The position numbers and the translations under genes are program-made. The notes under the pieces were generated by a model that ran no database searches, was not told the origin of the DNA, and saw only the letters and a program-made list of their open reading frames with translations. From Thermoplasmata archaeon (GTDB lineage: Archaea > Thermoplasmatota > Thermoplasmata > Lutacidiplasmatales > UBA184): a stretch of DNA of 64,000 nt. The stretch is from positions 1 through 64,000 of the forward strand of contig DATKQS010000020.1 in the NCBI GenBank assembly GCA_035532555.1. The letters are read 5' to 3'. Shown one piece after another: positions 59,142 to 59,271 of the stretch (positions are counted from its first letter, which is position 1; every line of letters begins with the position of its first letter).

Positions 59142-59149
59142 AAATACAC
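59142..59149 (+). promoter_or_regulatory. TATA-like box for tRNA-Arg
   Basis: AAATACAC lies about 26 nt before the tRNA 5' end at 59171. Confidence 0.5.
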
Positions 59150-59170: not shown

Positions 59171-59271
59171 GGGCTTGTGGGGTAGTCTGGACTATCCTGT
59201 CGGCCTTCGAAGCCGACGACCTGGGTTCGAATCCGCCCGCCTCGCGGACGGCGAAACTCCCAGCAAGCCCG
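59171..59271 (+). tRNA. tRNA-Arg (anticodon TCG) with an intron in the T-loop
   Basis: Acceptor arms GGGCTTG (59171-59177) and CAAGCCC (59264-59270) pair perfectly, with discriminator G at 59271. The D-arm holds GG at 59189-59190 followed by A, the A20-type arginine identity base. The anticodon arm is TCGGC / GCCGA (59200-59204, 59212-59216) around CTTCGAA, giving anticodon TCG (59207-59209). The T-stem CTGGG (59221-59225) pairs with CCCAG (59259-59263) only after removal of 26 nt, leaving a normal TTCGAAT loop. Mature length is 75 nt. CCA is not encoded. A scan that ignores introns would see a mismatched T-stem. Confidence 0.92.
59232..59257 (+). other. tRNA intron, 26 nt, bulge-helix-bulge, position 59/60
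   Basis: The junctions form a textbook bulge-helix-bulge: outer helix is the T-stem, a 4-bp central helix pairs TTCG (59226-59229) with CGAA (59252-59255), and 3-nt bulges are AAT (59230-59232) and ACT (59256-59258). The intron body folds as CCG/CGG, a C-A mismatch, CCGC/GCGG and a CTC loop. Cleavage after the second base of each bulge gives this interval. Confidence 0.88.

Follow-up and report, generated by a model that had tools for sequence, protein, structure and literature searches.

The window analyzed here is the whole stretch of 64,000 nt, and positions 59171–59271 of its forward strand, on which all window features described below lie, hold a tRNA-Arg gene with the anticodon TCG at 59207–59209, as assigned by ARAGORN. 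The acceptor, D and anticodon arms are intact, and the acceptor and T-stems are perfect. The T-stem, formed by CTGGG (59221–59225) and CCCAG (59259–59263), closes solely when 59232–59257 is taken out. The precursor folded into a cloverleaf plus a bulge-helix-bulge (BHB) motif at −50.4 kcal/mol, in which TTCG, i.e., T-loop residues 54–57 (59226–59229), pairs with CGAA (59252–59255) to give the central helix, with the bulges AAT (59230–59232) and ACT (59256–59258) at its ends and an intron hairpin, composed of the h′ helix and its loop, at 59233–59251. With 3-nt bulges, a 4-bp central helix and flanking helices, the BHB at these junctions is strict. Both the closing of the T-stem and this motif had been described in the first-pass annotation, and the fold agrees with it on the two points. 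The predicted cuts, 59231|59232 and 59257|59258, would release a 26-nt intron, TCCGCCCGCCTCGCGGACGGCGAAAC (59232–59257). The 5′ exon (59171–59231) covers tRNA positions 1–59, and the 3′ exon (59258–59271), delimited from sequence, fold and orthologues, carries T60, the 3′ strands of the T-stem and acceptor stem, and the discriminator base G73; CCA is not encoded. Once the intron is removed, a clean cloverleaf is obtained, with a spliced body of 74 nt, or 75 nt with the discriminator base. A putative promoter element of the box A (TATA) type, AAATA, lies at 59142–59146, approximately 25–29 nt upstream of the tRNA.

Standard tools handled this locus poorly. ARAGORN returned a mis-formed, unspliced gene at 59171–59243, and against the Rfam tRNA model the unspliced gene reached 26.3 bits, under the cut-off of 29, so that the window yielded nothing in the Rfam gathering scan. 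The host had been taken for a member of the Thermoplasmatota and, in agreement, the named genomes closest to it belong to Thermoplasmata archaea from the UBA184 clade; the EndA protein of this genome shares 96% identity with its counterpart in Thermoplasmata archaeon YP1.bin63 and 72% with the one in UBA184. The clade corresponds to Ca. Lutacidiplasmatales, UBA184 included (PMC9287336); tRNAscan-SE in archaeal mode was used in that study, and the word "intron" is absent from its main text.

Conservation of the intron among orthologues

The 101 bases of the locus were used to search 103 genomes from 7 genera of the same family. Matches were obtained in 101 of these genomes, and 90 orthologous Arg-TCG loci were retrieved and parsed. 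An intron of 23–38 nt was found at the identical junction in 84 of these loci, and one more intron-bearing gene, in G084, was interrupted by the contig end. The other six loci were intronless and came from all five genomes of genus g2 (G001–G005) and from G013, whose contamination is 7%, so that its copy is weaker evidence than those of genus g2. The 5′ exon is kept in both groups. In the six intronless relatives, the T-loop is TTCGAAT, the same as in the predicted spliced product, and this places the insertion at the non-canonical position 59/60, as first annotated. The third base of the 5′ bulge, which is also the first base of the intron, was any of the four (A, T, G or C) among the 84 orthologues; because it varies across species it is intronic, and the junction is therefore fixed at 59/60. 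All four pairs of the central helix were present in 79 of the 84 sequences and three of four in the remaining 5, while the 3′ bulge was ACT in 74 and its final T was found in every one.

Covariation was analyzed in 27 sequences of equal length, and two-sided changes were detected at 10 of 17 pairs (46 cells). There was compensatory change at all eight pairs of the intron hairpin helix, and two-sided change at two of the five T-stem pairs, with 100% of the T-stem cells paired. The covariation score was 0.326, compared with 0.129 ± 0.014 for shuffled data (0/500 reached the observed value) and no more than 0.128 when the pairing was slid. In addition, most of the 85 orthologues compared had an A/T peak resembling box A around positions −28 to −26. 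Judged by sequence comparison, two tests, i.e., the orthologues with compensatory change and the intronless relatives, exclude chance as an explanation for the Arg-TCG intron. The fold, the 84 orthologues and the covariation, which also underlie the assignment of TTCG to the central helix, place the 26-nt intron exactly where the first-pass annotation had put it, right to the base.

Introns elsewhere in the same genome

The genome that carries the window (G000) was surveyed with a scanner permitting introns in the T-loop and the anticodon loop and with a covariance model built on the T-arm plus intron (R1), and weak tRNA matches were inspected. This survey found 43 tRNA genes and no further Arg-TCG gene, either intronless, as the first-pass annotation had considered, or split; four expected isoacceptors (Ile-GAT, Leu-TAG, Pro-TGG and Pro-GGG) were absent from it. 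About 13 T-loop introns of 26–38 nt were found at 59/60, in Arg-TCG, Arg-TCT, Glu-CTC, Asp-GTC, Ala-GGC, Ser-CGA, Ser-GCT, Ser-GGA, Lys-TTT, Gln-CTG, Asn-GTT, Gly-TCC and His-GTG, and their removal left TTCRAAT in 12 of 13 genes and TTCGAAC in Asn. Three D-loop introns were recognized by inspection, in a CAT tRNA (L207, G000:C12:72901-72957), in Arg-GCG (L210, G000:C6:103582-103652) and in Lys-TTT (L203, G000:C12:12573-12673), the last of which has the T-loop intron too. Four anticodon-loop introns were found, in Tyr, Trp, a CAT tRNA and Leu-TAA. At least one intron was thus present in about 19 of the 43 tRNA genes found (about 44%), and 59/60 was the site of about 13 of 16 non-canonical introns. 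The first-pass annotation had dealt with a single tRNA, and its account is incomplete, given about 13 T-loop introns in the genome and a pattern that extends across the class. As a separate observation, genome G103 has an Arg-type tRNA (L303) whose D-loop insert is placed similarly to that of Arg-GCG in G000.

The motifs at these junctions were compared. In tRNAs with G57, the central helix is mostly strict, and TTCG pairs with CGAA, CGGA or CGAG. Those with A57 (Glu, Arg-TCT, Ala and three Ser), which account for 6 of the 13 T-loop introns, have G opposite A57, His being one TTCA tRNA that does not; the Asn intron also has one mismatch. Because of the A57–G pairs and the Asn mismatch, the T-loop introns of G000 are not all strict BHBs. 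It was also observed that the A57–G mismatch within the central helix is conserved, with G and not U at this place (L030, L031, L206, L205, L209 and L211). Large-scale intron transposition of the Thermoproteales type would leave similar intron sequences at one position in different isotypes. Between isotypes of G000, the same 59/60 site is used in 13 isoacceptors and the 3′ end of the intron is often common, while the hairpin sequences differ; this comparison was made by eye, and the shared ends may reflect the BHB constraint.

Splicing enzymes

A search with PF01974 found one endA gene in G000, with two catalytic repeats in a single frame; a second was looked for in this genome and not found. 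The encoded protein has 354 aa, and the N-terminal and catalytic domains were matched twice each. The AlphaFold2 model of a 96% identical relative had a pLDDT of 92.9 and aligned with the Methanopyrus kandleri subunit fusion with a TM-score of 0.87, and with the α′2 EndA of Archaeoglobus fulgidus with 0.75–0.77 (by query). The catalytic residues Y292, H300 and K331, assigned by alignment with the A. fulgidus enzyme, fall in invariant columns among 29 sequences. The specificity loops of crenarchaeal (CSL) and ARMAN (ASL) enzymes were looked for as an insertion between YGS and LSLIE, where a loop bearing lysine would lie close to the active site. Neither was present in the G000 protein, whose length equals that of wild-type A. 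fulgidus EndA at the CSL site of the 3p1y chimera, and none of the 29 homologues had an insertion there. By sequence and predicted structure, the sole EndA found is an ordinary fused α′2-type enzyme with no specificity loop. A gene for RtcB, the archaeal tRNA ligase, is also present (E 2.4e-174).

These data bear on the claim, made in the first-pass annotation, that the intron implies a specially capable endonuclease. This was unsupported: since the Arg-TCG motif is a strict BHB and the EndA is ordinary, ordinary BHB recognition suffices. Cleavage by a dedicated broad-specificity endonuclease would fit the fact that non-canonical introns elsewhere accompany (αβ)2 or ε2 enzymes (PMC6379350, PMC12397907), and that some T-loop introns of G000 are slightly relaxed, but with one fused α′2 gene, no CSL- or ASL-type insertion at the equivalent site and a strict motif at Arg-TCG itself, we regard it as improbable.

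Proposed processing of the precursor

Collectively, it is very likely that 59171–59271 is a functional, single-copy tRNA-Arg(UCG) gene with a 26-nt archaeal BHB intron at 59/60, excised by the α′2 EndA, with the exons joined by RtcB. In the precursor, the near-invariant U54-U55-C56-G57 of the T-loop would pair with the intron CGAA to build the strict BHB, each 3-nt bulge would be cut after its second base by the single α′2-type EndA, and RtcB would join the exons into a normal T-loop, UUCGAAU. The BHB, and not the anticodon loop, would be what EndA reads. Some points speak against this account: α4 and α2 enzymes are strict for canonical-position BHBs according to PMC4090602, which would make cleavage at 59/60 less likely; five of the 84 orthologues have only three of the four central pairs; and the T-loop introns of G000 include relaxed motifs.

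The insertion could instead be retained, giving a mature tRNA with an extended T-arm, and the unspliced form is indeed stable too (−50.4 kcal/mol). Nevertheless, the central helix stays at four pairs between 3-nt bulges, the form that EndA requires, and the intronless relatives are normal. Moreover, residues 54–60 of the T-loop would go into a helix in such a tRNA, and when they are lost in this way there is no D-loop/T-loop contact. This makes a retained insert highly improbable. Equally improbable is a tRNA pseudogene or fragment with a T-arm broken by random insertion, which would account for the poor scores from standard tools (26.3 bits and a truncated ARAGORN gene) but not for a junction held in 84 genomes with compensatory changes, perfect acceptor and T-stems, a conserved promoter-like element and the finding of no other Arg-TCG gene. 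Both readings were rejected on the covariation and the intronless orthologues.

The pairing of the intron with the T-loop may also explain why so many tRNAs share the site. U54-U55-C56-R57 occurs in nearly every tRNA and would serve as the 5′ side of the central helix, which means that a complementary tetranucleotide plus NCU at the intron end could in principle generate a similar BHB in many isotypes. Position 59/60 may hence be a portable insertion site, used in about 13 tRNA genes because this tetranucleotide is near-universal. The A57–G mismatch of six tRNAs would need to be tolerated by EndA. We lean slightly towards a scheme in which 59/60 is portable in Thermoplasmata via UUCR, the introns have spread from isotype to isotype within the UBA184 family, perhaps by transposition, and the plain α′2 EndA removes them, accepting A57–G. 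If true, the rule linking non-canonical introns to (αβ)2 or ε2 enzymes that carry specificity loops would fail for an entire class.

T-loop introns across Thermoplasmata

Model R1 was run on 400 Thermoplasmata genomes, with matches taken at E ≤ 0.01. All 95 family genomes sampled gave 2–12 matches each. Outside the family, 83 of 305 genomes had 1–5 matches, usually one, and 222 had none. Some of these outside matches were read singly, and they placed scattered T-loop introns in about a dozen families, with Lys-TTT, Arg-CCG, Arg-TCT, Leu-TAA, Ser-TGA, Gly-CCC and Gly-TCC as hosts; a few among those read were non-tRNA or not assignable. By these sequence matches, T-loop introns as such are class-wide in Thermoplasmata.

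The distribution of the Arg-TCG intron is narrower. Arg-TCG genes were also read in eight other Thermoplasmata families, and the T-arm was uninterrupted in all 28 of these genes; the two further matches L253 and L254 belong to another tRNA and were left out. In G103, the Arg-TCG gene (L300 1501-1603) has a short anticodon-loop insert and a T-loop intron of ~13 nt. In this sample, the Arg-TCG T-loop intron appears to be a trait of the family and one neighbour in the order. In two other genomes of the order, Arg-TCG is interrupted differently: in G105, an intron of ~215 nt lies at about 37/38 (L277, G105:C20:5891-6182), and a similarly long one lies in the anticodon loop of the G104 gene (G104:C19).

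Some minor features were observed in these genes. The long Arg-TCG introns of the sister family (G105 and G104) contain repeated hairpin-like segments, and the ~13-nt intron of G103 is without an intron-side helix, i.e., a very short, relaxed motif. Lys-TTT was among the most widespread T-loop intron hosts in the out-of-family matches read, and in several families (L343 in G137, L351 in G140 and L367 in G203) it apparently has two or three introns, with D-loop, anticodon-loop and T-loop introns apparently together in L343.

Comparison with known systems

Non-canonical introns, including those at 59/60, are known mainly from Crenarchaeota and Nanoarchaeota (PMC4090602), and non-canonical tRNA introns also from Thaumarchaeota (PMC8450103), three thermophilic euryarchaeal methanogens (PMC3218864) and soil Asgard archaea (PMC11291895). 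Both the intron type and the position are, therefore, already known from other archaea. In a 2014 review, Euryarchaeota with α4 or α2 enzymes were described with introns in <10% of tRNA genes and at the canonical position only, and the enzyme type was taken as the determinant of intron position (PMC4090602); reviews mainly link non-canonical introns to endonucleases that are of another type or carry a specificity loop (PMC4090602, PMC6379350). In a literature search with incomplete coverage of key earlier papers, we found no published report of non-canonical introns in Thermoplasmata. We tentatively suggest that the host and the pairing of enzyme and intron are what is new. From sequence data, Thermoplasmata would break the rule of PMC4090602 that α2 enzymes handle only canonical-position introns.

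The introns resemble those of Thermoproteales and other Crenarchaeota (PMC4090602, PMC8450103) in being short BHB introns away from 37/38, in the use of 59/60 and in affecting many tRNAs, some with two or three introns. Unlike in Crenarchaeota, the host is a member of the Thermoplasmata, about 13 of 16 non-canonical introns lie at the single site 59/60, and the α′2 EndA has no specificity loop. Canonical euryarchaeal introns, at 37/38 and with an α4 or α′2 EndA, share the strict BHB with its 4-bp helix and 3-nt bulges and the same enzyme class, whereas the site here is 59/60 and about 44% of the recovered tRNA genes are affected, compared with a reported euryarchaeal average of ~8% (PMC4090602). 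The permuted tRNAs of Thermofilum pendens are joined at the same T-loop position, 59/60 (PMC3218864), but those genes are circularly permuted, and Arg-TCG is collinear with an ordinary intron. The Asgard Atabeyarchaeia and Freyarchaeia are likewise soil archaea outside the Crenarchaeota with many non-canonical introns (PMC11291895), although they belong to another phylum and have introns in 92–95% of their tRNA genes.

In a Thermoplasmata family that combines an ordinary α′2 enzyme with T-loop introns numbering from several to about a dozen in each genome, the co-evolution rule becomes directly testable. The tRNA sets of many Thermoplasmata genomes may also be under-counted by tools that do not consider T-loop introns; with ARAGORN and Rfam, most of the T-loop intron tRNAs described here were missed or mangled.
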